NCBI GenBank assembly: GCA_903915655.1
Contig: CAIWTU010000100.1
Location: forward strand, 1 to 64,000
Length of the DNA: 64,000 nucleotides
Direction of reading: 5' to 3'
Source of the DNA: an uncultured Geobacter sp.
Lineage (GTDB): Bacteria > Desulfobacterota > Desulfuromonadia > Geobacterales > Geobacteraceae
Shown piece by piece: positions 6,777 through 39,428 of the stretch. The stretch's first letter is position 1. Every line of letters begins with the position of its first letter. The notes beneath the pieces were generated by a model, which worked only from the letters and a program-made list of their open reading frames with translations, did not search any database and was not told where the DNA came from. Position numbers and translations under genes: made by a program.

Positions 6777-6863
6777 AAAACCCTATTTCGCTAGCCCCCG
6801 ACCTTGAAGCAAAGTCACGTCTCAACAGGATAAAGGCCTGCAACAGCTTTTTACAAAGAGATA

Positions 6864-6893
6864 ACTTTAGATGACAGCTTTACTTTTTGTCAA
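6864..6893 (-). promoter_or_regulatory. Candidate sigma-70 promoter of the ffh-rsmI operon
   Basis: Minus-strand TTGACA (6888-6893), 18-nt spacer, TAAAGT (6864-6869, 4 of 6). It lies about 90 nt before the ffh start. The remaining gap up to the ABC-F stop at 7217 holds no gene I can support. Confidence 0.55.
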
Positions 6894-7216
6894 GGATAAA
6901 ATTTATTTCACCTCCAATCGGAGTGATAAATCCCCTTCTCCCGAGCTTTTCTGCCGCTAACATTCTCTGCCGTTATAAACTCATTCAGTTCCATTGCAGA
7001 CAATTTCTAGGTGAGTGCATCGGCCCGAAAGAAGTGAGATCAGCGCCGTCACATGTATAGCCACGGACGTATCGATAGTCATAGCTGATTTACTCCTCGT
7101 CTGCCGGTATGATGAGTGGATCGGACAGATTAAGACTTTTTATCAAGTTATCATTTAAAAAAGATCTGTCAAGGTTCACAACTGGATTTCTCCGAGGGGT
7201 GGCTCCAGGATGGGAA

Positions 7217-9169
7217 TTAGTTTGAGGCCGAAGAGGCTTCGTCTTCCTGCAACATCTCCCATTCCGCATAAAGTCCGGCAATACTCTGAATAAGTGTAGC
7301 ATGCTCTCCAACCACCGTTTTGGCAGAAGCAGTTGTCTTGAAGAAATCCGGATCTCCCATCTTCTGTTCGAGGAAGAGGAGGAGTTCTTCCGCCTCTTCA
7401 ATCTCTTTTTCCACTTCGGCAACTCTCTTTAACCGACTCCGCTCCTTTCGCTGTTTTTGCTTCTCTTCATCCCGCCGTTGCAAACGTTCCTCCTTGTGGG
7501 AAACGACTGCCTGCTGAAGGGAACCGGAGGGGTGGCAGACAGGCAGGGGCTCCCCTCCCGGATCTAGACGCATCATACCGAGCTTCTCCAGGTAATCCTC
7601 ATAATTCCCAGGAAAAGATCTTATCCCGCCATCAGCCACCTCAACAACGCGGGTAGACAACGCATCGATAAAGTAGCGGTCGTGGGATACAAAAACAACG
7701 GTGCCTGAAAAAGATTTCAGAGCTTCCAGTAGTACTTCCTTGCTGAAGAGGTCAAGGTGATTGGTCGGTTCATCCATCAGAAGGAGATTAACCGGACGGA
7801 GAAGCATCTTTGCGAGGGCAAGGCGATTTCTTTCACCTCCGGAAAGCACCCCGACCTTTTTATGGATATCGTCACCGGAAAACAGGAACGCACCGAGAAT
7901 ATCACGAAGTCCCGGAACGGCGTCAAAGGGAGCATCGGCCAGCAATTCTTCATAGACGCTCCTTTCGCCTGCCAGAAAGATTGACTGGTCCTGGGCAAAG
8001 AGATCAACAGCAACATTATGCCCTGTACTCCTCTCACCACTCTGGAGACCGTGACCTGCAAGGAGACGCATCAGAGTAGATTTGCCGGCGCCGTTATGAC
8101 CGACAAGGCATATCTTCTCGCCTCGTTCCACAAGGAGATCGATACCATCAAGCACAATATTCTCTCCATATGACTTTGATACATTTTTGAGTTCCATTAC
8201 AATTCTGCCGCTTTTTTGTGCTACCGGGAAGTTGAAGCGGATCCGCTTCCGTTCGGGAGGCAATATTATCCGCTCCATCTTTTCCAGTTGTTTTATACGG
8301 GATTGGACAAGCGCGGCCTTGTCGGCTTTGTATCGGAATCGCGAGATAAAATCTTCTATTTTCTGCATCTCTTCATCCTGACGTCGCTTCGTCTCCCGCA
8401 ACCTAGCAATACGTTCTTCACGCTGCAGGAGATATTTACTGTAATTACAATGATAGTCGGTTAGCGCGCAATTCCAGACCTCCGTTATCCTGTGACAGAC
8501 CTCATCCATAAAAAACCGGTCGTGGGAGACCAGAATTACCGAGTGAGGGTACCCTGTGAGGTACTCTTCCAGCCAGTTGCGCGCCTCTATATCGAGATGA
8601 TTGGTCGGCTCATCAAGGAGCAGCACATACGGTTTCTGTAAAAGAAGTTTGGCCAGCGCAATGCGCATCTGCCATCCTCCTGAAAATTCGGCGCAACCCC
8701 GCTCCCAGTCGGCAGGAGAGAACCCTAACCCCCGCAACACAGTCCCTGCCTCAGATTCCATCGAGTACCCCCCCCCCAGGCGGAACTGCTCCTGCAGATC
8801 ACCCAGCCGAGAGAGTAACTCTTCATCTTCCTCCCCACCACCCATGGCCTCCAGACGGAGACCGAGCAGCTGCAGTTCCTTCTCTATACCCTGCAAACCG
8901 GCAAAAGCCGTCATCACTTCGGCAAAGAGGGTCGTTTCATGACTGACAATCCCATCCTGGGGAAGGTAGCCGATCGTCGCCCCTCTGGCCAGCAGGATAG
9001 CGCCAGCAGAGGGGTCCATCTGCCCGGCAATAATCCGCATCAAGGTGGTCTTGCCTGCCCCGTTTTCCCCGACCAGGCCAACTCGTTCTCCCTTTTTCAA
9101 ATGCCAGTTTATATTCGAGACAATCGGTCTTCCGTTAAATTCTTTGGAAAAATTATGAAGATGTAACAT
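7217..9169 (-). CDS. ABC-F family ATP-binding protein
   Basis: A 650-aa protein with two ABC ATPase domains and no membrane segments, the layout of ABC-F proteins that act on the ribosome. Domain 1 has Walker A GENGAGKT (34-41), signature FSGGWQMRIALAKLL and Walker B VLLLDEPTNHLD. The linker RFRYKADKAALVQSRIKQLEKMERI follows. Domain 2 has GHNGAGKS, LSGGERNRLALAKML and LLLMDEPTNHLD. The C terminus (about 545-630) is a charged coiled coil. It resembles the YheS/Uup group; the exact subfamily is not clear by eye. It is monocistronic, with its own promoter. Confidence 0.95.
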   Translation of the reverse strand: MLHLHNFSKEFNGRPIVSNINWHLKKGERVGLVGENGAGKTTLMRIIAGQMDPSAGAILLARGATIGYLPQDGIVSHETTLFAEVMTAFAGLQGIEKELQLLGLRLEAMGGGEEDEELLSRLGDLQEQFRLGGGYSMESEAGTVLRGLGFSPADWERGCAEFSGGWQMRIALAKLLLQKPYVLLLDEPTNHLDIEARNWLEEYLTGYPHSVILVSHDRFFMDEVCHRITEVWNCALTDYHCNYSKYLLQREERIARLRETKRRQDEEMQKIEDFISRFRYKADKAALVQSRIKQLEKMERIILPPERKRIRFNFPVAQKSGRIVMELKNVSKSYGENIVLDGIDLLVERGEKICLVGHNGAGKSTLMRLLAGHGLQSGERSTGHNVAVDLFAQDQSIFLAGERSVYEELLADAPFDAVPGLRDILGAFLFSGDDIHKKVGVLSGGERNRLALAKMLLRPVNLLLMDEPTNHLDLFSKEVLLEALKSFSGTVVFVSHDRYFIDALSTRVVEVADGGIRSFPGNYEDYLEKLGMMRLDPGGEPLPVCHPSGSLQQAVVSHKEERLQRRDEEKQKQRKERSRLKRVAEVEKEIEEAEELLLFLEQKMGDPDFFKTTASAKTVVGEHATLIQSIAGLYAEWEMLQEDEASSASN

Positions 9170-25151: not shown

Positions 25152-25876
25152 TTATCTTTGAGTTTCTGCCAACGCCACCACCGCATTCTTTAGAGCCTCC
25201 AACGGTTCTTCAGTAATTTTCTTCTGCCGTTCGGTCTCCAGCGTCTGGGTCTTTTCACGCTCCTTAGAGACAATCTCGTTTCTCTCGTCTGCCAGCGTCT
25301 GCGCCTGTTGCGCCAGTTGTTTTCGTTCGGTCTCTGGGAGGCAGGAGGATTGGTAATTTCCTTCGTCAGCAAAACCGGATAATTTCAGTCGCGCCAGGAA
25401 AGACTCATCAGCCGACTCTAACTGAAGCGGCCAGCTGGTTGAAACGGGCTTCGTTTTCCCGCAGAGACTCAACATCCTCTTCCTTGCGCTTGTTGATATC
25501 GGTCAACACAACGCGGTACTCGGGCGTCCCATCTTTTTTCACCATCCGCAGTTCGCACCCTGGTAGTTGAGCTGACTCCCCGCCGCACCCCTGCCGGCAA
25601 GGCGGTGAATCCGCTGCCGTTACTCGCGCCCCGGTTGGGAGCATTCCAGTTTTCCGTACCGGTCTCCTTCAATTCATTCCCAGCCAGAAGTGGACCGCCA
25701 AGAAAGTTGACCAGAACGGTCAATTCATCATCTGATGGCACGTGCCAACCGGAAGAACAGAGAGCACGGGGATCGCTTGCTGCATATTCGTGGTCTGCGT
25801 GCCTCGCAGTGATGATACAACCATTTGATAACTTGTCAACTTGGAGGCCCGACCAGAGGCCCCTCCTATGAAACAA
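25152..25876 (-). pseudogene. Gene debris: FISUMP-type domain and PAS/PAC sensor fragments
   Basis: Three overlapping minus-strand frames carry pieces of unrelated proteins. 25469-25876 has CSSGWHVPSDDELTVLVNFLGG and LKETGTENWNAPNRGASNGSGFTALPAG, the core of the Fibrobacter-succinogenes major paralogous (FISUMP) domain. 25408-25644 has a PAC-like end, MVKKDGTPEYRVVLTDINKRKEE ... LRENEARFNQLA, as in PAS sensor kinases. 25152-25475 is a short coiled-coil. No frame is complete and the frames shift between pieces, so I call this decayed DNA. Confidence 0.6.
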
Positions 25877-25909
25877 GTTCCCCCTTGATAATTTCCTGGA
25901 TAATATCTC

Positions 25910-25939
25910 TTGACATTACCACTTTTTAGCTGTTCTACT
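25910..25939 (+). promoter_or_regulatory. Promoter of riboswitch cassette 1
   Basis: TTGACA (25910-25915), 18-nt spacer, TCTACT (25934-25939). The same arrangement and nearly the same sequence recurs at 39317-39346. Confidence 0.65.
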
Positions 25940-25944
25940 TTAAA

Positions 25945-26022
25945 CTATTAAAGCCAAACCACGAGCAATCGTGGGACGGAAAGCCGCGGGTCCTCCAGGG
26001 GGACAGCCGGGTTGCCAAATGA
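25945..26022 (+). promoter_or_regulatory. GEMM-I cyclic-dinucleotide riboswitch (copy 1)
   Basis: The class I GEMM core is recognisable: GCCAAACC, a stem closed by the GAGCAA loop, GGGACGGAAAGCC, then GCGGG...CAGCCGGGTTGCC. This matches the c-di-GMP-I aptamer consensus (GCAAACC ... GGGACGCAAAGCC ... AGCCGGGUUGCC). In Geobacter relatives some members sense cGAMP instead. By my alignment the position equivalent to Vc2 G20 is G, which favours c-di-GMP, but this needs proper alignment. A terminator follows at once. The cluster from 26401 to 37413 lies downstream. Confidence 0.85.
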
Positions 26023-26299: not shown

Positions 26300-26400
26300 G
26301 GGGGATAGCTGATTACGAGGTGCGACTTGCCGGCGCCACGGCACACGAAGTGGTTCTGCAACGACACTGACACAACGGAACACAACGAAAGGAGAGCACA

Positions 26401-27696
26401 ATGAAGAACAGACGCACCATCAGGAGGATTGTCCTGCCGCTGCTGATCTGCGCGGCCACCGGCCTGACAACCGCATGGGCCGGGGGGAAAATCACGCAGG
26501 ACACGGCAGTCTCGGAATTCTCCCACCGGCTCACCAACCTCCAGAACAAGTACGATGTCGTCAAATACCAGTGGTACGACATCTATGCCGATGGCCTCGT
26601 GCCCGGCGCTGATGAAGGGGGGAAACTGCTGATCGATGCCAAGGCCGCACTCTCTTCCGGCAACGCCCGGCAGGCAACAACACTGCTCGACTCGGCGGAA
26701 AAGTTACTTACGACCTATGAGAAGGGTAATCTCCCCCTCTATTCGCCACCGGAACCGATGAAAGATCCGGCCGATACGGGCAAGGTCCACTTGGGAACCC
26801 TCAGTGATCTGAAGATGACGGAATTTGCCGGGATCCCCCGGTGGAACTACTGGTTCAACTTCGTCGGGAGGGGGGACGATGGAGAGCAGTATATGATCTA
26901 TGCCTGCATAAATCAGCACGGTACCGGCAAGGTGGTCCTGCCGGTCCTGTTCGCCCTTTCTTCGACGAAGAACCCGAACGATGTCCGAAAGCTGAACTTC
27001 ACCACCATGCCGGTCTACACCGAAGGAAAGGATAGCATCACCTATACGGTCACGGAAGGGAACCGGTCGCTTAGCTACACCCTGGCGCAGGGCAGCGTGA
27101 AGATAACGTACCGTGACGTTGACATGACGGTGGTTGCCAGCGCGAAGTTCAACTACTCTTTCTGGTACAACAAGGGGCTCGGCGGCGCCGAGATGATGCC
27201 GAATGCCGTTATGGCCGGGTTCGAGGAGATGGGAGCAGCCTCCGCCACCTTCACCTTCAAGAAGAAAAAAGTAACCGTCAAGGGGTTTGCTGAGCAGGAA
27301 AACCTCTTCTGCGGCGGCCCCAAGAGTGCCGACTACCGGACCGCTCTCCTGAAGTTCGGCAACGAATGGTGGGTACCGTTCCATACCGACCAGGTGAGCG
27401 GCCTCTTCTGTATGACCGGCAGATACCGGGACGCCGGGCTCTACTACAAGGGTAAGTACTACACCCCCTCCGAATTCAAGGTGACGCCGCTGAAGGGGAA
27501 CACCTCCTTTATCATCGATGCAAAGTTCGGTGGCAACGACCTCCATCTGATCGTTGATCTCTGGGGATGGGACCCGAAGCTCTATGAGCACTGGGGGAAC
27601 GCCGCCGGCACGGTGAACGGGAAGAAACTGACCAACGGTTTCAGTTGGCTGGAGCATATCCCCCAGGGGGGCGTCAACAACAGCCCGCCGCAGTGA
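26401..27696 (+). CDS. Exported protein of unknown function, possibly calycin/CrtC-AttH-like
   Basis: A 431-aa protein with a Sec signal peptide (MKNRRTIRRIVLPLLICAATGLTTAWA), so periplasmic or secreted. Residues 30-115 look helical (HRLTNLQNKYDVVKYQWYDIYADGL). The rest is beta-rich with many Trp/Tyr and ends LIVDLWGWDPKLYEHWGNAAGTVNGKKLTNGFSWLEH. That is reminiscent of lipocalin-like CrtC/AttH hydratase-family proteins, but I would not assign a function. AAAGGAG precedes the ATG. It is the first complete gene downstream of riboswitch 1. Confidence 0.75.
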   Translation: MKNRRTIRRIVLPLLICAATGLTTAWAGGKITQDTAVSEFSHRLTNLQNKYDVVKYQWYDIYADGLVPGADEGGKLLIDAKAALSSGNARQATTLLDSAEKLLTTYEKGNLPLYSPPEPMKDPADTGKVHLGTLSDLKMTEFAGIPRWNYWFNFVGRGDDGEQYMIYACINQHGTGKVVLPVLFALSSTKNPNDVRKLNFTTMPVYTEGKDSITYTVTEGNRSLSYTLAQGSVKITYRDVDMTVVASAKFNYSFWYNKGLGGAEMMPNAVMAGFEEMGAASATFTFKKKKVTVKGFAEQENLFCGGPKSADYRTALLKFGNEWWVPFHTDQVSGLFCMTGRYRDAGLYYKGKYYTPSEFKVTPLKGNTSFIIDAKFGGNDLHLIVDLWGWDPKLYEHWGNAAGTVNGKKLTNGFSWLEHIPQGGVNNSPPQ

Positions 27697-27765
27697 CGGT
27701 GATAGCAGGGGAGACGAGCCACATCCGGAGAGTGACAACACTATCTACATAAGGAGGGATGAAAC

Positions 27766-28560
27766 ATGATAGTTGCAGGAATAGATCTGGGCTCAACAAC
27801 CGGCAAGGCGGTGGTGCTGGTTGATGACAAGATATTCCTCGGAGATATCATCATGTCCACGCCTAAACCTGCGCTTACCGCGCAGTTGGCTATGGATGCG
27901 GCGCTTAAAAATGCCGGGCTCTCATCGGTGAAAGATCTCAGCTATATCGTCAGCACCGGTTACGGCAGGCTTAAGGTTGATTTTGCCAACGAAAATATCT
28001 CGGAAATTTCCTGCCACGCCAAAGGCGCTTTTTACGCCATGCCTTCCGTAAGGACGGTAATAGACATAGGCGGACAGGATTGCAAGGCTATCTCCTTGAG
28101 TGATAAGGGGGCGGTGCTGGGCTTTGAGATGAATGATCGGTGCGCGGCCGGCACAGGCAGGTTCTTTCAGGTCATGGCCAAGGTTCTGGCCTGCGGACTC
28201 GACGGTATAGGTGATCCGGCCAACATAAGTAAAACTCCTGCAAGTATATCAAGTCAGTGCAGTGTGTTCGCCGAATCAGAAATCATTACGCTGGTTAACA
28301 ATGACATCTCTTTGCCCGACATCATAACCGGCATAAACAAAGCTGTAGCAAGCCGTGTCAGTTCGCTGGCCAGACGGGTAGGGGTGTCCGAAGATGTCGT
28401 CATCAGCGGGGGTTGCTACAATAATGAAGGGCTCAGAGCGGCGCTGGAAGACTCTTTGGGTATGAAAATAACGAAACTGCTTCTTAACCCGCAGTTCATG
28501 GGAGCTCTGGGCGCCGCTGTGCTCGCAAAGGGAAAAGCCGCCACTCTCACGAAATCATAA
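27766..28560 (+). CDS. 2-hydroxyacyl-CoA dehydratase activator-type ATPase (BadF/BcrA/HgdC family)
   Basis: A 264-aa ASKHA ATPase of the type that binds one [4Fe-4S] cluster between two subunits and injects an electron into a partner enzyme on ATP hydrolysis. It shows the phosphate loop AGIDLGSTTGKAVV, VIDIGGQDCKAI, and the cluster cysteines in NDRCAAGTGRFF (C126) and SSQCSVFAESEII (C165), plus SGGCYNN near the C terminus. Its length matches HgdC. An AAGGAGG precedes the ATG. It directly precedes one dehydratase-like pair and is the only activator in the cluster, so it may serve both pairs. Confidence 0.93.
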   Translation: MIVAGIDLGSTTGKAVVLVDDKIFLGDIIMSTPKPALTAQLAMDAALKNAGLSSVKDLSYIVSTGYGRLKVDFANENISEISCHAKGAFYAMPSVRTVIDIGGQDCKAISLSDKGAVLGFEMNDRCAAGTGRFFQVMAKVLACGLDGIGDPANISKTPASISSQCSVFAESEIITLVNNDISLPDIITGINKAVASRVSSLARRVGVSEDVVISGGCYNNEGLRAALEDSLGMKITKLLLNPQFMGALGAAVLAKGKAATLTKS

Positions 28561-28572
28561 ACGGAGTCTGAT

Positions 28573-29724
28573 ATGTCTGAAGAAAACAGATCACAAGTCT
28601 TGAAGAAGTTTAACGACTATGCGGGGAAAATCCTGAATCCTTCGGTAGAAAACGTTAAATCAGCAGACTGCAGGGTTGTCGGCTATTTCTGTTCGTTCAT
28701 ACCTGAAGAACTTTTCATTGCCGCAGGCCTCCTGCCCTTTAGAATGAGGGGGACGGGCAGCGAAACTACCGAGAGGGCCGACGAATACTTCACCTCCTGC
28801 AACTGCAGCTTTCCGCGCCACTGCTTCAATCAGGCTCTGACCGGGGAATTCACGTTCCTGGACGGGCTTGTTGTCGGGACCAGTTGTGATGCCACACGGT
28901 ACATCTATGACAACTGGAAAAGCAGCCCGATTAAGACGCCGTTCATCTATCTGCTGGGGTACCCTCATGTAAGCGGTGTTGCCATGGCGAATTATTACCG
29001 CGCTGAACTGGCCAAACTAAAAACAGCTCTTGAGGAACAGTTCGGCGCTCGCATAACGGATGAAAAATTGAGGAGCGCCATAACACTCTGCAATGAAACC
29101 AGGGAGCTTCAGCGACAGCTCTATGAAATGAGAAAATCCGCCAGCCCGCCGATAACCGGCTCCGAAATGGTTTCGGTCATGGTCGCGGGCGTTTCCATGC
29201 CTAAAGATGAATACAATGCGGATCTCAAGCAGTTGATTGAAGAGCTTGAAGCTCTGCCTGCCACTAACAGTACCTATGCGGCACGACTGATGGTTGTAGG
29301 CTCCTGCGGGGATGACGACATCCTGAGTCGTCTTGCGGAGGAACAGGGGGCGCTCGTCGTCACCGACCACACCTGTTTCGGCGGCAAGCTGAAATACGGC
29401 GCAGTGGACGGGGCCGCTTCTGATCCTCTTCAAGCGTTGGCAGAGTATCAGATTCTGACCCGGCCTTTCTGCGCCAAGGTCGGAGGGGCATATCAGTTAA
29501 GGGCCAAAGTAATACTGGATGCCGCGAAGGAATTCGGGGTGGACGGAGTTTTGGGACAGAGACTCGGCTGCTGCGACACATGGGGCGGCGAGCTTTATGC
29601 CCTCAAGGAGGACCTCAAGGGTGCGGGTATACCCAGCCTGATGATTGAGCGGGAATATGTCCCGGATTCCGAAGGCCAGCTTGCAACCCGCGTTCAGGCG
29701 TTCATCGAGACGGTAAGGAGGTAG
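28573..29724 (+). CDS. 2-hydroxyacyl-CoA dehydratase-like subunit, HgdB/BcrC type (pair 1)
   Basis: A 383-aa protein of the HgdB/BcrC/FldC and double-cubane-cluster superfamily, expected to hold an Fe-S cluster reduced by the activator. Visible are GYFCSFIPEELFIAAGLLPFRMRG near the N terminus, CNCSFPRHCFNQAL, the VVGTSCDATRYIYDNW loop, ITGSEMVSVMVAGVSMPKDEY mid-protein, and GVLGQRLGCCDTWGGE near residue 330, all typical cluster-binding regions. The substrate is unknown: no CoA-transferase or beta-oxidation gene is nearby. It lies 12 nt after the activator and 3 nt before its partner. Confidence 0.9.
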   Translation: MSEENRSQVLKKFNDYAGKILNPSVENVKSADCRVVGYFCSFIPEELFIAAGLLPFRMRGTGSETTERADEYFTSCNCSFPRHCFNQALTGEFTFLDGLVVGTSCDATRYIYDNWKSSPIKTPFIYLLGYPHVSGVAMANYYRAELAKLKTALEEQFGARITDEKLRSAITLCNETRELQRQLYEMRKSASPPITGSEMVSVMVAGVSMPKDEYNADLKQLIEELEALPATNSTYAARLMVVGSCGDDDILSRLAEEQGALVVTDHTCFGGKLKYGAVDGAASDPLQALAEYQILTRPFCAKVGGAYQLRAKVILDAAKEFGVDGVLGQRLGCCDTWGGELYALKEDLKGAGIPSLMIEREYVPDSEGQLATRVQAFIETVRR

Positions 29725-29727
29725 ACC

Positions 29728-30960
29728 ATGACTGACCAGGAAATAATCAATGCACTCACCGCGGAAGGCAACGAATACTTCAAGGCGCTGACCATAGCGG
29801 GCGTGAACGATAACGCCAGGATGGGCAGGCCTTTCATCATCGTGTCAGACGATGCGCTCCCCGAAATACCGGTTGCCATGGATATCTCATGCTCCATCAT
29901 GACTGTTGCCGGCGCCATGGGGACGGTGGGACCGGGCGCAGCCGAGAGGATAGACAAGGCGACCGAAATGGGGGTGGAGAACAGGCTCTGCGCCAGCGTG
30001 AAAATGGGGGCGTATTTTCTGAAGGCCGGAATCCTGCCGGTGCCGGACATGGTCATCACGACAAACTCGCCGTGCGACGCGGTCGATATGTTGGGCCAGA
30101 TGATGGACAATTACCCGCCATGGGCAAAAGTCCCGAAATTCAGGCTGGACGCACCGCACGGCCAGACCGATGAGGACTTTGTCTATTTTGGCGCGCAGTT
30201 GAAGGAGATGGTGCAGGCAATCGAGAAGGCGACCGGCAAAAAACTCACCATGGAAAGATTCGTCGAGGTGGCCGAGGAGTCGAACAGACAGGCATCCCTG
30301 ATAATGGATTTTCAGGAACTGACGCGGGCTGTTCCCTGCCCGGTGGACCCGGACATGGCCAGGGTGGGCTGGGAGCTCGCCAGATGGGTGGCAGCCACCG
30401 ATCCGTCGGTTTTTCCGAAAGCAACCGGCTGGCTTGAAAGGCTCGTCGACGTGACCGAACGCAAGGTGAAAGCAAAAACGGGGATGGACGGCGTACAGGA
30501 GAAGATACGTTTCCTCTGGTATGATGTTTCTCCGTCCTGGGGTTCGAAACTCTTTCCGCGGCTCAGGAGCGAACTGGGCGCGGTATGCATGAAGACCTAT
30601 TACTCGTTTCATAATTACATCCCCATCGACACGACGAGCATGGACAGCATGCTTGCGTCTGTCGCCAAGAAGTACCTCATGGGCACACCGATGACGCGGC
30701 AGGCCATGCACACCGCCGACGTCTTCTGCGACGATATCGTTCGCATCTGTAAAGAGGACAAGTGCGACGCGATGATCATGCCCTGCCATATCGGGCACAG
30801 GGACACCAACGCCTACCAGAAACTGGCTCGGGATACCTGTCGTGCGAACGGTATTCCCTTTTTCTTCCTTGGCTGTGATGTGTGGGACGAAAGATATATG
30901 CCGGCCGATGTCGTATTTGACAGGCTGAAAACATTTTTTCAATCGACAGGACTTGCCTGA
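29728..30960 (+). CDS. 2-hydroxyacyl-CoA dehydratase-like subunit, HgdA/BcrB type (pair 1)
   Basis: A 410-aa second subunit of the same superfamily. Cysteines in likely ligand positions are DISCSIM, VITTNSPCDAVD, FCDDIVRICKEDKCDAMIMPCHIGHRDTNAY and FLGCDVWDERY. The last segment matches the end of BcrB/HgdA-type proteins. It follows its partner by 3 nt with AAGGAGG in the overlap region, so a 1:1 complex is likely. It is clearly paralogous to the 34409-35620 gene. Confidence 0.88.
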   Translation: MTDQEIINALTAEGNEYFKALTIAGVNDNARMGRPFIIVSDDALPEIPVAMDISCSIMTVAGAMGTVGPGAAERIDKATEMGVENRLCASVKMGAYFLKAGILPVPDMVITTNSPCDAVDMLGQMMDNYPPWAKVPKFRLDAPHGQTDEDFVYFGAQLKEMVQAIEKATGKKLTMERFVEVAEESNRQASLIMDFQELTRAVPCPVDPDMARVGWELARWVAATDPSVFPKATGWLERLVDVTERKVKAKTGMDGVQEKIRFLWYDVSPSWGSKLFPRLRSELGAVCMKTYYSFHNYIPIDTTSMDSMLASVAKKYLMGTPMTRQAMHTADVFCDDIVRICKEDKCDAMIMPCHIGHRDTNAYQKLARDTCRANGIPFFFLGCDVWDERYMPADVVFDRLKTFFQSTGLA

Positions 30961-30974
30961 TCAAGGATTTCAAC

Positions 30975-31637
30975 ATGATTGAACTTCTCATGGCGACGCT
31001 GCCGCTGTCACTGGCTGCCGCTGTCAGCGTATCATCGATACTGGTGTTCTTTGCGATCCTGGTGGCAAAGGAAAAGCAGATTGAACATGGGTTTGCCTTT
31101 GTCCTGGGCGGCATCTCATGCTACGCCGCCATAGCGGCCGTGGTAATCTTTTCATGTTCCGCGGCAGCTCCTCCCGGATCGTCTCACCACCCGGGGCTGC
31201 ATGCCGGCGGAGACTTCATCCTCTCGGCGCTCTGCATTTTGCTGGCCATCAAGGAGATGCTCAAGAAAGCTGATGCGGGTAAGGAGAGGAACCGCGCTCT
31301 GCCTGGGGGCGCCGTAGCCTACTTCGGAATCGGCGCCCTGATGCGGGGCGCCAGCGCCAACACCCTCCCGCCGTTCATTGCCGCAGTGAAGGATGTTTCA
31401 GGAGCGCATCTCTCCTCCTCCTCATCGATGACGTTGTACCTGATGATTATTCTGGTCTCAATGGCCCCGATGATCATCCCCCTGCTGATCTTCATGTTCA
31501 ACAGGGAAAAGGCCGTGGCCCTCATCCTGCCCGTGAACAATTTCCTGGAGAAGAACAAGAAAAGAATCAGCATTACGGTGCTGGTAGTCATTGCGTTCTA
31601 TCTGGCGCTGCACGGGTTTCATCATCTGCGGGGATAA
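30975..31637 (+). CDS. Polytopic membrane protein, possibly GAP/LysE-like transporter
   Basis: A 220-aa inner-membrane protein with about six hydrophobic segments (LPLSLAAAVSVSSILVFFAILVA, FAFVLGGISCYAAIAAVVIF, FILSALCILLAI, a central GGAVAYFGIGALM segment, LYLMIILVSMAPMIIPLLIFMF, ISITVLVVIAFYLALHGF). A His/Pro-rich loop sits near residues 67-78. The layout resembles GAP/Sap (LysE superfamily) exporters, but the call is weak. It is embedded in the dehydratase cluster, 14 nt after pair 1. Confidence 0.65.
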   Translation: MIELLMATLPLSLAAAVSVSSILVFFAILVAKEKQIEHGFAFVLGGISCYAAIAAVVIFSCSAAAPPGSSHHPGLHAGGDFILSALCILLAIKEMLKKADAGKERNRALPGGAVAYFGIGALMRGASANTLPPFIAAVKDVSGAHLSSSSSMTLYLMIILVSMAPMIIPLLIFMFNREKAVALILPVNNFLEKNKKRISITVLVVIAFYLALHGFHHLRG

Positions 31638-31638
31638 C

Positions 31639-32391
31639 ATGGGGATGACGCTGCTTGACGATCAAATCTGCAAGGTACCTGAATATGTTGAGGAACTGCG
31701 ATCTCGGGGGAGAGCGGTGACCGTCTCCGATGCTCCTCCTATCTCCGTGGCGCTCCCGGTGGCTGTCGGGAAGGGCGCCCACTCTGGTCTCGTTCTGCGT
31801 GGTGACACCTGGCTGGAACTGGGAAACCCCGAGGCGGGGTCATGTTCATGCACGCTCTTCACCGCCACGCCGGGGCTCGTCCGGGATGGCCGGGTGACGG
31901 TAATCGGTCCGGATGTCAGTGATGCCTGCGGCAAAAGTCTCCCCTTCGGTCAGATACTGCTGATCGGAGGAGATGAGCTTCAGGAGGGAGATTGCGAGCT
32001 GCTCATGCATATGGGTGTCATCGGAGACAGCATCGAGGGGTACATGGTTCGGAGTTCGCGGCAGAGTGTCTGGAGCAGGATCAGCAGGGATGTCGCCCTG
32101 AAGGGATTCACTCTCAAGACCCTCGGGAGGGCACTCAGAACGCTGCACAAGGCCGGCAGTTGCAAAATACAGGCTATGGAAACCATCTTTGTGACTTCCA
32201 GCCGGGAAGATCTGGAGCGTCTTGCTGAAATAGCCCGGGAGGGGCAGATGATCACCCGCGAGATAGCCAGGGTGACGTGGAAAGCCCGGGGCGTTGATCT
32301 TGACTGCACCTTGGACTGTTCATCCTGTGCTGACAAAACGGTCTGTGACGACATCAAGGAACTGCTGGGAGAGAGGGTATCCGCATCATGA
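31639..32391 (+). CDS. Acetyl-CoA synthase (CdhC)-like protein lacking the A-cluster domain
   Basis: A 250-aa protein. By eye it follows the N-terminal/middle part of the CODH/ACS beta subunit CdhC: WLELGNPEAGSCSC (CdhC has ELGGPK), VTVIGPDVSD, FGQILLIGGDEL, EGYMVRSSRQSVWSRISRDVALKGF, LGRALRTLHKAG and METIFVTSSREDLERL. It then ends with C223-x3-C227-x2-C230-x5-C236, possibly an Fe-S or Ni site, where CdhC would enter its A-cluster domain. So it should not be a working acetyl-CoA synthase. The start at ATG 31639 follows GGGG and overlaps nothing; the longer frame from 31591 runs into the upstream gene. A CooC-like ATPase gene follows directly. Confidence 0.65.
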   Translation: MGMTLLDDQICKVPEYVEELRSRGRAVTVSDAPPISVALPVAVGKGAHSGLVLRGDTWLELGNPEAGSCSCTLFTATPGLVRDGRVTVIGPDVSDACGKSLPFGQILLIGGDELQEGDCELLMHMGVIGDSIEGYMVRSSRQSVWSRISRDVALKGFTLKTLGRALRTLHKAGSCKIQAMETIFVTSSREDLERLAEIAREGQMITREIARVTWKARGVDLDCTLDCSSCADKTVCDDIKELLGERVSAS

Positions 32392-32417
32392 GCTTTACTG
32401 GAGGAGGTGAGTCAGAA

Positions 32418-33185
32418 ATGATTGACAAACAGGTAAGACCCGGCAACAGCATACCGAAGCCGGTGCTGGCGGTATGCGGCAAAGGTGGTGTGGGGAAGAC
32501 GGCCTTCTCGGCGCTGCTGGCCCGGGTTCTGATTGCGGAACGGCTGAAGCCGCTTCTGCTCGTTGATGCCGATCCGGTGGGAGGACTGACCTCGGCTATC
32601 GGTGAGACGGCCGTATCCACTCTTGCTGCGGTGCGCGACCGACTGGTCGGGCAGGCCATCTCGGGAGACAAGGGGGCTCTAGCCGATGCTGCCAGCCAAC
32701 TGGACTATTATGTCATGAACGCGCTGGTGGAACACCCGGATTTCAGTCTGCTGGCCATGGGGCACAATCGGGAAAAGGGGTGCTTCTGCCCGGCAAATCA
32801 ACTGCTCAAGAATGCCGTCGACACTCTGATCTCGTCGTTTGCCGGCGTGCTCATCGACGCCGAAGCCGGGATCGAGCAGATTAATCGTGATGTTACGGGC
32901 CGAGTCACCGGCATCATCGTCGTTGTGGACGGCTCGCAACGAAGCATGAATACCCTGGAGATGATTGTCCGGATGCGGGGCTCTTCCAACGTCAGGGTGG
33001 TTGCCAACCGGGTTCCGAAAAACTTCGCATTTAACCTCCCTCAATCGGTGGTCCACCTTGGCTCTATCCCGGAAAACGAGGAACTTCAGCAGTTCGACCG
33101 CGACGGTCGCTCCCTCTGGCAGTTGCCGGCAGATAATGAAGCTCTCACCGCAGTGCGGGAGATTGCGTGGCGTCTTACCTGGTGA
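32418..33185 (+). CDS. CooC/AcsF-like P-loop ATPase (Ni-enzyme maturation type)
   Basis: A 255-aa MinD/ParA-fold ATPase. It has the deviant Walker A CGKGGVGKT (20-28), LLVDADPVGGLTSAIGE, a CxC in NREKGCFCPANQLL (the Zn/Ni-binding dimer motif of CooC), VLIDAEAGIEQINRDV, and VANRVPKNF. CooC proteins insert nickel into CODH, and AcsF serves acetyl-CoA synthase. No full CODH or ACS is in the window, so the client may be the CdhC-like neighbour or the dehydratase subunits. I choose ATG 32418, which has GGAGGAGGTGAG upstream. An ATG at 32388 overlapping the previous stop as ATGA would add ten residues. Confidence 0.85.
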   Translation: MIDKQVRPGNSIPKPVLAVCGKGGVGKTAFSALLARVLIAERLKPLLLVDADPVGGLTSAIGETAVSTLAAVRDRLVGQAISGDKGALADAASQLDYYVMNALVEHPDFSLLAMGHNREKGCFCPANQLLKNAVDTLISSFAGVLIDAEAGIEQINRDVTGRVTGIIVVVDGSQRSMNTLEMIVRMRGSSNVRVVANRVPKNFAFNLPQSVVHLGSIPENEELQQFDRDGRSLWQLPADNEALTAVREIAWRLTW

Positions 33186-33248
33186 GACATGAGTTCCTCG
33201 TTCCGCCGTATGCGTGACAAATCTTAACAAAAGATAGGAGAGTGTTAC

Positions 33249-34412
33249 ATGAAATCAGGCATTAAATCAGATAGTTTTGAAAAGTTTACCGTGATTGCAG
33301 GCAGCATCATGAACCCGTCAGTTCAGGAATGTAAAGATGGTGGCCGAAAAGTCCTGGGCTATACCTGCTCATTCGTGCCTGAAGAGCTGATCATTGCTGC
33401 GGGCATGCTCCCTTTTCGTATCAGGGCGACAGACAGCGAGAGCGCTGGACGAGCAGACGACTATTTTGAGTCGGCCAACATCTGCAGCCTGATACGCCAC
33501 ACCTTCGGAAAGGTGTTGAACAGCGAATATGATTTCATCGACGGCGCCATAGTCGGCGGTGGCTGCGACGGTAACCGGCATATCCTTGATAACTGGGAAA
33601 AAAGCCCGGCAAAAATTGCTTTCCTTGATCGCCTGTTTATTCCGCATGCCTCCAATAACCTCACTGCGGAATTTTTTCTGGGTCAGCTTTCAGGATTGAA
33701 GAGCAGAATTGAAGGGTATTTCGGCGTAACAATCACGGATGAAAAATTATGGAGCGCAATCAGACTCTGCAACGAGGTCAGGGAGCTTCAACGGGAACTC
33801 TATGGCCTAAGGCTGTCGGATAATCCGCCCATCACCGGCTCGGAAACCGTGGCTGTCATTGTCGCCGGATCATCAATGCCGAAAGAGGAGTACCGGGACG
33901 ATCTGAAAAAGCTGTTACGTGAACTTCAGGAAGTACAAGTCCCTGAAAAGAAATACTCCGCTCGGATAATGATTGTCGGTCCCGGCCATGACGACACCTC
34001 GATGAGCGATATCGTCGAAGAGCTGGGCGGCCTGGTGGTCAATGACCTGACCTGTTTCGGCGGCAAGGTAATCTTCGGCAGTGTCAAAGAGGATGGGTCT
34101 GACCCGCTCAAAGCCCTGGCCGATTACCAGGTGCTGACAAGGCCGTTCTGCCCGAAGAACCTCAGTGCGCATCCTGTTATCAACAAGGAAGTGTTTGACA
34201 AGAGCAAAGAATTCAAGGTCGATGGCGTAATCGGCCAGGTATTCCTCTGCTGTGAAACCTGGGGGGGTGAAATTTTTATCCTTAACAAAGAACTCAGAGA
34301 TGCCGGCATACCCTTGCTGAGAATCGAGAGGGAATGCACCGCAGATTCGACAGGCCAATTGAGGACGCGTGTCCAGGCCTTCATTGAGACGATATCAGGA
34401 GGTGCACTATGA
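33249..34412 (+). CDS. 2-hydroxyacyl-CoA dehydratase-like subunit, HgdB/BcrC type (pair 2)
   Basis: A 387-aa paralogue of the 28573-29724 protein, similar along the whole length: GYTCSFVPEELIIAAGMLPFRIRA, VGGGCDGNRHILDNW, ITGSETVAVIVAGSSMPKEEY, DLTCFGGKVIFG, GVIGQVFLCCETWGGE. It differs where pair 1 has CNCSFPRHC: here it is ANICSLIRH, so one cysteine of that patch is lost and another remains. TAGGAG lies upstream of the ATG. The stop overlaps its partner by 4 bp. Confidence 0.9.
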   Translation: MKSGIKSDSFEKFTVIAGSIMNPSVQECKDGGRKVLGYTCSFVPEELIIAAGMLPFRIRATDSESAGRADDYFESANICSLIRHTFGKVLNSEYDFIDGAIVGGGCDGNRHILDNWEKSPAKIAFLDRLFIPHASNNLTAEFFLGQLSGLKSRIEGYFGVTITDEKLWSAIRLCNEVRELQRELYGLRLSDNPPITGSETVAVIVAGSSMPKEEYRDDLKKLLRELQEVQVPEKKYSARIMIVGPGHDDTSMSDIVEELGGLVVNDLTCFGGKVIFGSVKEDGSDPLKALADYQVLTRPFCPKNLSAHPVINKEVFDKSKEFKVDGVIGQVFLCCETWGGEIFILNKELRDAGIPLLRIERECTADSTGQLRTRVQAFIETISGGAL

Positions 34413-35620
34413 TAAACGTATTTTCTCAATTACAGATGCAAGCTGGCAAGTCACTCGGCGGTCTTTGCCTTGACCCGCAGAATGCATCTCCTGGACCGTT
34501 CGTGCTGGGCAACGGTGACTTTTTCATCGAAATACCGGCTGCTTACGGTTGCTCATATTCAGACCTGACGATTACCGGCGCCATGGGGACAGCAATGCCG
34601 GATGCATCTGAACTTATAGATAAAGCGATAGAAACCGGAGTGGAAAGCCGGATGTGCACTGCCCTTAAAGTCGCCTGCTATTATCTTGAAGCAGGCCTCG
34701 TCAGGAAACCTGACATGATAATAACTTCCAACTCTTGCTGCGACTCCATGGACACGCTTGGAAACCTGATGAATACCTACAAACCATGGGCGGAGGTCCC
34801 CAAGTTCATAATGGACGCACCGCACAGCTTTGATGAGGAAAGCTATATATACATGGGTAAACAACTGCGCCAGGCTGTGACCTTCATGGAAGATGTCTTT
34901 GGCAGGAAGATGGACTGGGACCGCCTCAGGGAAGTTTGCGTGCTGTCTAACAAACAGGACCAGTTGCTGCTCGAATTTCAGGAATTAAAAAAAGCCGTGC
35001 CTTGCCCGGCAAATCCTGATTTCTCAAGGCTTGGCTTCGCCTATGACAGGTGGACCGGTGAAAGAATCTCTCCGCAGATAACCGACTGGCTCGAACAGTT
35101 GATAAGCGCCACTGAACAGAGGGTAAAAGACAAGCTGGGGATTGAAGGAATAACTGAAAAGGTGAGGTTCCTCTGGCAGGAACTGGCCGGGACCTGGCCC
35201 CCGGTCGAGCTCTGGGGGCGTCTGCAGCAGGAACTTGGTGCGATTGTGATCATGGATTATATGTCATTCGGGACATTGACGCCCATCGATCTGACGAGTG
35301 AAGAGGCCATGTTCACCTCATTCGGCAAGCGATTTTTGCTGGAAGACCCGATGAACAGGCAGTGCCTGCACACGACCGACTTTTTCTGCAATGACATCCT
35401 GCAGATAGTCAAGGATTTCAAGTGCGACGCGGTGATCATACCCGCGCATATCGGAAACCGCGACACAAACTCACGGCTGAAGGTCGTCAGGGAGATGTGC
35501 CGCGAAAAGGGCATCCCGTGCCTGGTCCTCGGCATGGACATCTGGGACAAACGGTACATGACGCCGGAAACGGCCTTCGACCGGATAAAAACATTCTTCG
35601 AAACGACAGGACTTATTTGA
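34409..35620 (+). CDS. 2-hydroxyacyl-CoA dehydratase-like subunit, HgdA/BcrB type (pair 2)
   Basis: A 403-aa paralogue of the 29728-30960 protein (TGAMGTAMPDASELIDKAIETGVESRMC, IITSNSCCDSMDTLGNLMN, CNDILQIVKDFKCDAVIIPAHIGNRDTN). Compared with pair 1, MPCHIGH has become IPAHIGN, and NSPCD has become NSCCD, so the cysteine pattern differs and so may the metallocluster. ATGA overlap with the preceding gene and AGGAGG just upstream imply coupled translation. Confidence 0.88.
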   Translation: MINVFSQLQMQAGKSLGGLCLDPQNASPGPFVLGNGDFFIEIPAAYGCSYSDLTITGAMGTAMPDASELIDKAIETGVESRMCTALKVACYYLEAGLVRKPDMIITSNSCCDSMDTLGNLMNTYKPWAEVPKFIMDAPHSFDEESYIYMGKQLRQAVTFMEDVFGRKMDWDRLREVCVLSNKQDQLLLEFQELKKAVPCPANPDFSRLGFAYDRWTGERISPQITDWLEQLISATEQRVKDKLGIEGITEKVRFLWQELAGTWPPVELWGRLQQELGAIVIMDYMSFGTLTPIDLTSEEAMFTSFGKRFLLEDPMNRQCLHTTDFFCNDILQIVKDFKCDAVIIPAHIGNRDTNSRLKVVREMCREKGIPCLVLGMDIWDKRYMTPETAFDRIKTFFETTGLI

Positions 35621-35634
35621 TCAAAGGAGGTTTT

Positions 35635-37413
35635 ATGAAACAGAGAATTATTATCGCGTTATGTCTGCTGATCGTTACCCTGTTAACCGTCCAGGCGTTA
35701 TATGCCGCCAGGAAACCGGTTGCCGTAAAACATGCGGCTGCAGCCATAATCGACCCGAATGCATACCCTGCCGTAACTGCGGAAGAATGGGGACAGTTGC
35801 GCTGGATGCTGAAACTTGCCGATCAGGACATTCCCAATTTCACTAATTTCCAATCCGTGGATGAACAGGGAGTAAGCGCAAGCCGTTATTCCATTGCATT
35901 TGGCGCCTATTTCCTTGCTGCCGAGCAGTACCACAAATTCCCGGCATGGCAGGAGACAATCAAGACTGCGTTTGACCGCATAAACCAGAAGATGCTCGAT
36001 AAACAGGTATGGGGATACTGGGCGAATGAAAGCCTCGGTATTACAAAGTTCGAGCCCAATATGGACCGGCCTTACGCTGAAAACAAAGACCCTGTGTCCC
36101 TAGGAAATATCATGTATTCAGGCCATCTGGGACAGATGATCAATCTCTATCAGATGCTCTATAACGAAAGGAAATGGGATGCGCCGGGCTCGATAGTTTT
36201 CAAGTGGGACGACAAAACGGAGTTCGTCTATGACAACAGGAAACTCCAGGAAGTCATGTTCCTTCAGATGATGACAAATCCTGTCCCCGGGATAGAGTGT
36301 GAACGCAACGCCATCTTCCCGGTCTGCAACCTTCATCCGATGCTCAGCTGGAAGTTGTATGACCAGATGCACGGCACGCGTTATTTTGATGCAGCCCATC
36401 CGCTCTTTGACGAATTCTTCGAGAAAACCTTTGTCAATCGCAAGACGAACAGCTACGGCATTATTTATCTCATCAAGCAGGGCCTGTTATTTTCATCGTG
36501 GAGTCCCCAGTATGGCAACAAAATGGACGGTCTGATAAAGGGAATGGTCGCCAAGGGTGCTAATTTCAACTCCGCGAGTATTGATGGCTGGACCGGAACA
36601 TTCATGCACGCATGGAACCCGAAACTGGTAGAAAGCCTTTACCCCTATAGAAAAAAATTTCAGGTAATATACAATCCTGACGGCACGGTCAATCTCAGGA
36701 AAGATAATTTTGCACCTGACGCCTATTGGGGCTTTTTCACCATGGGAGTGGCCGAGATGGGCGACACTAAACTGTTGAAGGCGCTGCACAAGGCGGCTGA
36801 CAAAGAGCTGTCTCCGGTCTGGATAGACGGCACCTACCATTATCAGTTCGCAGACAAGACTCCGACAGTAAACTTGGCGGCGGCGGATTCGGACAAGTCT
36901 GCAACTCCGGCACACGCTGCGCCGATGGCAAAGTCCCCTGCTGCACCGCCGGCGCCGGCAGATGACGCTAAAGGCGGAATCTGCTGCAACGGTTTGCGGA
37001 CCAAAGAACATGGAAATATCGGCAATATGAAGACTTGGCCTCAGCATGCTGACCTCGTTGACAGGCAGATGGCAATTTCGAGGGCGCTGCCCAAGAGCGG
37101 CATGTGGACCATGCACAACAAGCCGTTCGATGCGGCACATTTTACCGAGCCTGCAATTACAGGGATTGATGTAAAAAAGACTGCGCTCAAGCGGGCGATA
37201 TATGACAGGTCAAAGAAGGCGCTCATCGTTTCTACAATGCTCGGCAAACCGGGCGCTGGAGATGTCAGTTTCAATATTGTAAATCTCGACTTGTCAAAGA
37301 CTTACAAGCTTATCATCGACGGCAAAAAGACTGCTCATATCAGCTCGGTGAAAGAATATGTTGTTACTCTTGACGGTGCGAAAGCCCATGACCTGATTCT
37401 TATACAGATATAG
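35635..37413 (+). CDS. Exported linalool dehydratase-isomerase-like protein
   Basis: A 592-aa protein with a signal peptide (MKQRIIIALCLLIVTLLTVQALYA). The start at ATG 35635 follows AAAGGAGG, 14 nt after the previous stop. Residues about 45-450 resemble linalool dehydratase-isomerase (Ldi), a periplasmic enzyme that hydrates myrcene and isomerises geraniol/linalool without cofactor. Matches are SVDEQGVSASRYSIAFGAYFLA (D76), YSGHLGQMINLYQMLY (H164) and GIECERNAIFPVCN, whose cysteines C222 and C231 have the nine-residue spacing of Ldi C171/C180. A Pro/Ala-rich linker (about 425-450) and a C-terminal beta domain follow. The substrate is unknown. Confidence 0.7.
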   Translation: MKQRIIIALCLLIVTLLTVQALYAARKPVAVKHAAAAIIDPNAYPAVTAEEWGQLRWMLKLADQDIPNFTNFQSVDEQGVSASRYSIAFGAYFLAAEQYHKFPAWQETIKTAFDRINQKMLDKQVWGYWANESLGITKFEPNMDRPYAENKDPVSLGNIMYSGHLGQMINLYQMLYNERKWDAPGSIVFKWDDKTEFVYDNRKLQEVMFLQMMTNPVPGIECERNAIFPVCNLHPMLSWKLYDQMHGTRYFDAAHPLFDEFFEKTFVNRKTNSYGIIYLIKQGLLFSSWSPQYGNKMDGLIKGMVAKGANFNSASIDGWTGTFMHAWNPKLVESLYPYRKKFQVIYNPDGTVNLRKDNFAPDAYWGFFTMGVAEMGDTKLLKALHKAADKELSPVWIDGTYHYQFADKTPTVNLAAADSDKSATPAHAAPMAKSPAAPPAPADDAKGGICCNGLRTKEHGNIGNMKTWPQHADLVDRQMAISRALPKSGMWTMHNKPFDAAHFTEPAITGIDVKKTALKRAIYDRSKKALIVSTMLGKPGAGDVSFNIVNLDLSKTYKLIIDGKKTAHISSVKEYVVTLDGAKAHDLILIQI

Positions 37414-37439
37414 GAAGGGTTGCAACTTTTCTCTCGCTC

Positions 37440-37755
37440 CAAACAGGAGCCCCCTGTGCAGATGCTCCGTATTATACCCATCAACCCAAGTCTGGGCCGC
37501 TGCCAGACTTGAAAAAGTCCGGCTCGGATAACCGGCTCTATATTTCATTGTTCGAAACAGCGCTTCAGAGTAGAGGTTGTCGTCACTAACCTGTGGTCTG
37601 CCGAAGGAAGGAACTACTCCCAGGCGGAGGGTAGCCCGCATGGTCGCCCCTTTCATCGGGCCGCCGTTGTCGGAATGAAGAACCAGACCTTCCGGATTGA
37701 TGCCCCCCCTGTGCATCTTCATAAACGGGTAAAGAATAAAATATGACTGGTTCAA
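37440..37755 (-). pseudogene. IS3-family transposase fragment (OrfB integrase core)
   Basis: VLHSDNGGPMKGATMRATLRLGVVPSFGRP, then ALFRTMKYR and YNTEHLHRGL are the end of an IS3 OrfB DDE integrase core. The N-terminal half is missing, part of it appears in another frame (37586-37792), and the frame runs past the domain into the 3' end of the preceding gene. No second ORF or terminal repeats are evident. The 37756-37986 stretch has no gene I can support. Confidence 0.75.
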
Positions 37756-39075: not shown

Positions 39076-39316
39076 CCCCCTGTGTCAGGATAGTTGTCGC
39101 CTCTCCGTGAGAGATTGTGTTAACCTGTGGGGCAAAGAGGGAGAGCGACAAAGCGTACGGTCAGTCCTCCAAGTTGTCATGATAGAGACCGCCCCTGCCA
39201 ATTTTCATGGTTTGACTGCCATGAAGTGATGTCACATCAATTTAGATAACATGTCAACCTGGGCGATCGACCTCATAACCCCTCCTATGAAACAAGTTCC
39301 CCCTTGATAATTTTTC

Positions 39317-39346
39317 TTGACATTACCACTTTTTTGCTGTTCTAAT
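39317..39346 (+). promoter_or_regulatory. Promoter of riboswitch cassette 2
   Basis: TTGACA (39317-39322), 18-nt spacer, TCTAAT (39341-39346, 5 of 6). Upstream it shares CCTCCTATGAAACAAGTTCC with cassette 1. Confidence 0.7.
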
Positions 39347-39353
39347 TTAGCTT

Positions 39354-39428
39354 ATCAAAGCCAAACCACGAGCAATCGTGGGACGGAAAGCCGCGGGTCC
39401 TCCAGAGGATAGCCGGGTTGCCAAGTGA
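39354..39428 (+). promoter_or_regulatory. GEMM-I cyclic-dinucleotide riboswitch (copy 2)
   Basis: The aptamer core is almost identical to that at 25945-26022: AAAGCCAAACCACGAGCAAT, GTGGGACGGAAAGCCGCGGG, and AGCCGGGTTGCC. The next intact gene is the subtilisin-like protease at 39846. Confidence 0.85.

Follow-up and report, generated by a model that had tools for sequence, protein, structure and literature searches.

The genes considered here have their closest described relatives in the class I benzoyl-CoA reductases (BzdNO/BzdPQ), in the 2-hydroxyacyl-CoA dehydratases (HgdAB or HadBC) with their activators HgdC or HadI, and in the double-cubane cluster protein (DCCP) with its reductase. To our knowledge, the enzymatic Birch reductions known so far are restricted to CoA esters. 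In the benzoyl-CoA reductase, BzdN holds its [8Fe-9S] double-cubane cluster through Cys36/73/100/263/293/327 and BzdO its catalytic [4Fe-4S] cluster through Cys95/128/380, while the natural role of the double-cubane proteins has been stated as unknown (PMC11971306). Here we describe an operon of ten open reading frames (ORFs) on the + strand at positions 26401-37413 of a 64,000-nucleotide stretch of contig CAIWTU010000100.1 from an uncultured Geobacter sp.; the whole stretch is referred to below as the window. In this operon, subunits of the 2-hydroxyacyl-CoA dehydratase family (HGD subunits) and an HgdC-type ATPase stand together with a short CdhC-like protein related to acetyl-CoA synthase (ACS), a CooC-type ATPase and a member of the linalool dehydratase-isomerase (LDI, Ldi) family. 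The combination is real, conserved and apparently undescribed, a variant of the benzoyl-CoA reductase, dehydratase or DCCP kind with an ACS-derived partner. The genes are as follows.

g1, 26401..27696, +, exported protein of no family; N-terminal hydrophobic signal, then a predicted helical and a beta-rich part (low confidence)
g2, 27766..28560, +, HgdC/BadF-type ATPase (activator); TIGR00241
g3, 28573..29724, +, BzdN/double-cubane-type subunit, pair 1; PF06050, six Cys kept
g4, 29728..30960, +, BzdO-type partner subunit, pair 1; PF06050; His at the BzdO C380 position
g5, 30975..31637, +, SfLAP (Sap/GAP) integral membrane protein; PF11139, 69.2 bits (cut-off 35)
g6, 31639..32391, +, short CdhC, homologue of the ACS middle domain; PF03598, 54.7 bits (cut-off 24)
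g7, 32388..33185, +, CooC/MinD-type P-loop ATPase; KGGVGK P-loop, CxC
g8, 33249..34412, +, BzdN/double-cubane-type subunit, pair 2; PF06050; Cys 40, 79, 106, 269, 301, 335
g9, 34409..35620, +, BzdO-type partner subunit, pair 2; PF06050; Asn at the BzdO C380 position
g10, 35635..37413, +, Ldi-family protein with signal peptide; PF18566, 246 bits (cut-off 26.1)

The starts of g6 (about 31639) and g10 (about 35635) are corrected positions. An original prediction, made from the letters alone, had described ten tightly spaced genes on one strand headed by a riboswitch. The spacing is as described: seven of the nine junctions overlap or measure 15 nt or less (69, 12, 3, 14, 1, -4, 63, -4 and 14 nt from g1 to g10), from which co-transcription of g1-g10 is predicted. 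The family names it gave, for which it had proposed hidden Markov model scans as a check, were recovered in such scans. Its statement that no described pathway has this set agrees with our literature search, which found no description of the combination in open-access papers, most subscription journals lying outside its scope.

A recurrent module around a short CdhC

The families had been thought not normally to occur together. A CdhC profile built from three sequences was run against a sample of 395 genomes from the phylum. Short CdhC ORFs (about 220-350 aa, with one longer open frame) were found in 29 of them, distinct from the full-length ACS proteins, which mostly have about 740 aa. Forty short-CdhC loci were read, many of them on short contigs, with 20 full-length ACS loci from the same phylum read over the same distance as a control. 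HgdA-like genes were present at 33 of the 40, HgdC at 32, HgdB-like genes at 31 and CooC at 28. Because HGD or HgdC genes lie at 34/40 short-CdhC loci and at 0/20 full-length ACS loci (Fisher 5e-11), the idea of an unusual company is refuted for the core set: short CdhC, CooC-type ATPase, HgdC-type ATPase and HGD pairs form a recurrent conserved module, and the same figures show the short CdhC to be a separate family. The idea does hold for the Ldi, SfLAP and g1 genes, which among everything searched are joined to the core only in the window and at one other locus (L005, on contig CAIOGM010000150.1 of another uncultured Geobacter).

The g6 protein, at about 250 aa against 460-730 aa for CdhC/AcsB, aligns only to ACS residues ~312-518, that is, to the middle domain and the first cysteines of the A-cluster domain; the nickel-site domain of ACS is absent. 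Its score of 60.6 bits against TIGR00316 (cut-off 356) and its lack of a full A-cluster (CGC nickel site) place it outside the ACS/CdhC equivalog. The cysteines C228-x2-C231-x5-C237 are invariant in 40/40 short CdhC proteins, and in the window clade C224 is added (Cx3CxxCx5C). The protein had been called a truncated ACS; its likeness to ACS and its shortness are correct, but it belongs to a conserved short family and is not a broken gene. The structure model (mean pLDDT 40.5) is too poor for claims about the fold. A plasmid search returned only a full-length ACS, from Acetoanaerobium (708-aa frame).

The best solved relative of g7 is CooC (3kje, E 1.7e-14), the nickel-insertion ATPase, with which it shares the KGGVGK P-loop and the CxC that all aligned CooC rows have and that we take to be the motif known from CooC. 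The CdhC and CooC families take their names from the carbon monoxide dehydrogenase (CODH)/ACS system, and g6 and g7 might be considered remnants or accessories of that Wood-Ljungdahl system. This we regard as very improbable, and the idea was rejected. The CdhC profile search found no full-length ACS in the window genome, nor is there a CODH (CooS), the only prismane-family protein of that genome being a hydroxylamine reductase; the short family is conserved separately from full-length ACS in many genomes that show no full-length ACS match, and it adjoins HGD genes, not CODH genes. With no CODH and no full ACS in the genome, the CooC of g7 cannot serve either of them, and g6 and g7 therefore probably serve this module, in which CooC may load metal into the short CdhC or into the HGD subunits.

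A maturing role could also account for both proteins if they were assembly or repair factors for HGD-type clusters, standing outside a working enzyme that is an ordinary double-cubane reductase. Where its function is known, CooC acts as a maturation ATPase, and strict co-occurrence with HGD pairs suits a maturase as well as a subunit. Known HGD-type enzymes (BzdNO, HadBC, DCCP), however, work without such a pair, and an ACS middle domain with an invariant cysteine motif goes beyond what a simple chaperone needs. We consider this explanation possible, though on the unlikely side.

The surroundings of the module vary. Genes for a GMC oxidoreductase lie near it at four loci (L006, L038, L040, L064), hinting at alcohol substrates. 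At five loci (L042, L047, L050, L051, L069) the clusters are large and contain two consecutive HgdC genes and several HGD genes; some also have a TetR regulator, and a protein of about 430 aa that matches no Pfam family recurs among them.

Candidate cluster ligands of the HGD-type subunits

The activator assignment of g2 is clear from its score (TIGR00241, 238.4 bits, cut-off 125.4). Its candidate [4Fe-4S] ligands are C126 in DRCAAGTG and C165 in SQCSVFAE, presumably the two cysteines per subunit that hold the bridging cluster in HgdC and BadF. The original prediction described the remaining HGD genes as two HgdA/B-like pairs; the Pfam family is right, but their closer kin are BzdN/BzdO and the double-cubane protein, not HgdA/B. 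Among solved structures g8 is closest to BzdN (8s02, E 1.2e-40), with DCCP (6eno, E 2.8e-23) and HadC behind it, and g9 matches DCCP and BzdO weakly. We refer below to the BzdN-type proteins as B subunits and to the BzdO-type proteins as A subunits.

All six double-cubane cysteines of BzdN are kept in 39 of the 40 B subunits aligned, g3 and g8 included, whereas HadC, the solved subunit of a true dehydratase, lacks two of the six in the printed alignment. Because these six cysteines are kept, g3 and g8 look like reductase rather than dehydratase subunits, which supports the double-cubane-type reduction proposed earlier. The first two BzdO cysteines are kept throughout the A subunits, the second aligning to BzdO with a one-residue shift or ambiguity. 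At the third position (BzdO C380) stands His in g4, L005, L099, L036 (two proteins) and L037, and Asn in g9, so that g4 and g9 have only two of the three catalytic-cluster cysteines of BzdO; every other complete A-subunit row has Cys there. The seven His/Asn proteins form one clade in the tree (support 0.977). The pattern of cysteine conservation favours a BzdN/DCCP-like reductase whose catalytic cluster is putatively altered.

The window locus shares with BzdNO/BzdPQ two related HGD subunits and a BadF-type ATPase; it differs in its third catalytic-cluster position, in having a single ATPase gene, in the additional short CdhC and CooC and in the lack of acyl-CoA pathway genes nearby. With DCCP and its reductase it shares the six-cysteine pattern, the HgdC-type ATPase and, by prediction, a reductive small-molecule chemistry, but DCCP is a homodimer, whereas each pair in the operon consists of two different subunits and has extra partners. 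With HgdAB/HadBC it has the Pfam family and the activator in common, and it lacks a CoA-transferase. The window's own genome also carries, at a separate locus (L129; G000 C93), a single HGD protein paired with HgdC without CdhC or CooC.

The resemblance of g8 to BzdN, together with acyl-CoA dehydrogenases, TetR and Fer4 proteins at the loci of several relatives, would suit a catabolic pathway acting on an aromatic or alicyclic acyl-CoA, in the manner of class I benzoyl-CoA reductase or a 2-hydroxyacyl-CoA dehydratase. Against such a pathway, neither the scanned window genes nor the annotated flanks of L005 include a CoA ligase, CoA transferase, thiolase or acyl-CoA dehydrogenase, as had been noted for the last three in the window; the A subunits of the operon lack C380, and the window version is tied to an exported Ldi and a membrane protein. 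We consider a CoA-ester pathway improbable, and ordinary 2-hydroxyacyl-CoA fermentation, already set aside in the original prediction, is unsupported.

Added genes, the second copy and the control region

Co-occurrence of the gene set in other genomes had been proposed as a check, and besides the widespread core there is the near-complete relative at L005, so that the set is not a chance juxtaposition. The order there is g1, g2, g6, g7, g8, g9, g10, g5. In DNA, L005 matches the window in blocks 31620-37415 (89.6%) and 26301-28562 (81.7%), which adjoin in L005; in the window, 3.06 kb of additional DNA that carries g3, g4 and g5 lies precisely at the junction of the two. Because the g6-g10 proteins are 88-94% identical against 79% for the acetate kinase of the same two genomes, because only 3/141 genomes of the order have a short CdhC, and because an rve_3 integrase core fragment (37294-37755, -) lies directly after the cluster, the version with Ldi, which was seen in two Geobacterales genomes, appears to have moved by horizontal transfer. 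Branched-chain-type ABC transporter genes (L074 1183-4775) directly follow the L005 copy (G041).

The g10 protein has the PF18566 domain and signal peptide of LDI and carries H167/C225/C234 (counted from 35626) at the positions of LDI His129/Cys171/Cys180, which we take to be catalytic. It is only distantly similar to the solved enzyme (E 2e-15), carries an additional C-terminal domain and is associated with a reductase module. Few genomes of the phylum encode Ldi proteins (8/395, the window genome included), and 5/7 of the other Ldi-bearing genomes also have a short CdhC (p 2.9e-5, uncorrected for kinship). One genome (G398) has, at a distance from the module, three tandem Ldi-family genes with 44-46% identity to g10 (L091 16349-19901 and L092 397-2319). 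Terpenoid-like chemistry would be indicated solely by the Ldi family and the conserved LDI residues. In mycobacteria, membrane proteins of the SfLAP family have been linked to lipid export; the g5 counterpart in L005 is 66% identical and lies after Ldi. The g1 protein has no Pfam family match, is 86% identical in L005 and is absent from the other 394 of the 395 sampled genomes; its structure model (mean pLDDT 46.8) is too poor for claims about the fold. A CrtC/AttH-like identity for g1 was considered and dropped, no Pfam match supporting it. A cytoplasmic reductase together with a membrane carrier and two exported proteins suggests that the compound involved is small and hydrophobic and passes through the inner membrane.

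Ldi, g1 and SfLAP may instead be unrelated cargo on a mobile segment, only the core module acting together. The module occurs elsewhere without an adjacent Ldi, SfLAP changes position between the two copies and the integrase fragment is just downstream; yet g6-g10 are held as a single 89.6% identical block in two families, and the association of Ldi with short CdhC across genomes also speaks against mere cargo. We think this rather unlikely.

Upstream of the operon lie the following features.

25944..26020, +, c-di-GMP-I-GGC riboswitch aptamer (RF03167), 64.4 bits (gathering 59)
25895..26001, +, 107-nt duplicated segment (upstream sequence and most of the aptamer), 91% to 39302-39408

The riboswitch of the original prediction is thus found, above the gathering score, and is followed by a GC-rich segment and a T-run. 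Across the window genome this riboswitch family is matched 13 times, 5 times above the gathering score; L005 has no match. Binders of cyclic GMP-AMP occur among Geobacter GEMM-I riboswitches (PMC8835794). The two copies of the duplicated segment have an exact 49-nt core in common, and the second heads an unrelated S8 protease operon 13.4 kb away; near-identical segments on two unrelated operons suggest a copied control cassette. By our own reading of the alignment, the pocket residues are G20/A47/C92, which we take to favour cyclic di-GMP (c-di-GMP) as the ligand. Just upstream of the riboswitch (25152-25876, -) are ORF pieces that by eye resemble a disrupted PAS/kinase gene and a Fib_succ_major-like repeat.

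A possible ATP-driven reductase

From the observed gene set, its conservation and the conserved ligand residues we infer cluster types, an electron path, a role for CooC and a class of substrate. The core would be an ATP-driven low-potential reductase of the superfamily of class I benzoyl-CoA reductase and the double-cubane protein. The g2 dimer would hydrolyse ATP and pass electrons singly to g3 and g8, the B subunits with the [8Fe-9S] double cubane, from which they would reach the catalytic [4Fe-4S] site of the A subunits (g4 and g9), bound by two Cys and His or Asn in place of three Cys. The short CdhC would be a dedicated partner with a metal cluster bound via CxxCx5C, and g7 would load or reactivate metal, for which nickel is the obvious candidate, in g6 or the A subunit. 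A periplasmic Ldi-like (de)hydratase or isomerase, the exported g1 and the SfLAP transporter would be added in this operon; because of these additions, a small and non-polar compound, unsaturated or hydroxylated, that is carried across the inner membrane is the probable substrate. The operon's expression would be linked to a cyclic dinucleotide.

We favour this double-cubane reductase with a dedicated ACS-domain/CooC pair only tentatively, at somewhat less than an even chance, and several observations weigh against it. Metal binding, and a place for g6 in the complex, are predictions from sequence. The scores of g3 and g8 stay below the cut-offs for the double-cubane reductase (NF040772, 204 and 189.5 bits, cut-off 350) and TIGR03190 (162 and 142.8 bits, cut-off 453.8), and the NCBIfam equivalog cut-offs for BzdN/O (TIGR03190/03191) are not reached. 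The module lacks an adjacent CooC at L036, L037, L038 and L040, and three loci of one genus (L065, L066, L067) have a short CdhC without nearby HGD or HgdC genes, in the vicinity of acyl-CoA dehydrogenase and TRAP-type binding protein genes. In the third Geobacterales module (L099) the B subunit (6304-7461) has lost three of the six double-cubane cysteines and may have turned dehydratase-like, and in the other Ldi-bearing genomes with a short CdhC the Ldi genes are not adjacent to the module.

A bolder version, which we judge unlikely, is that electrons of very low potential pass from the double-cubane reductase to a site (nickel or mixed-metal) on the CooC-loaded, ACS-derived subunit, and that the whole, a new class of ATP-driven metalloenzyme, here acts on a terpenoid-like compound or on another alkene or alcohol not bound to CoA. 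If true, such electron delivery would join the worlds of benzoyl-CoA reductase and CODH/ACS in one machine. The conserved module, which would couple double-cubane chemistry to an ACS-derived protein and CooC in many uncultured Desulfobacterota and which displays, at the presumed active cluster, a conserved replacement of cysteine by histidine, offers concrete candidate genes for a new ATP-driven reduction.

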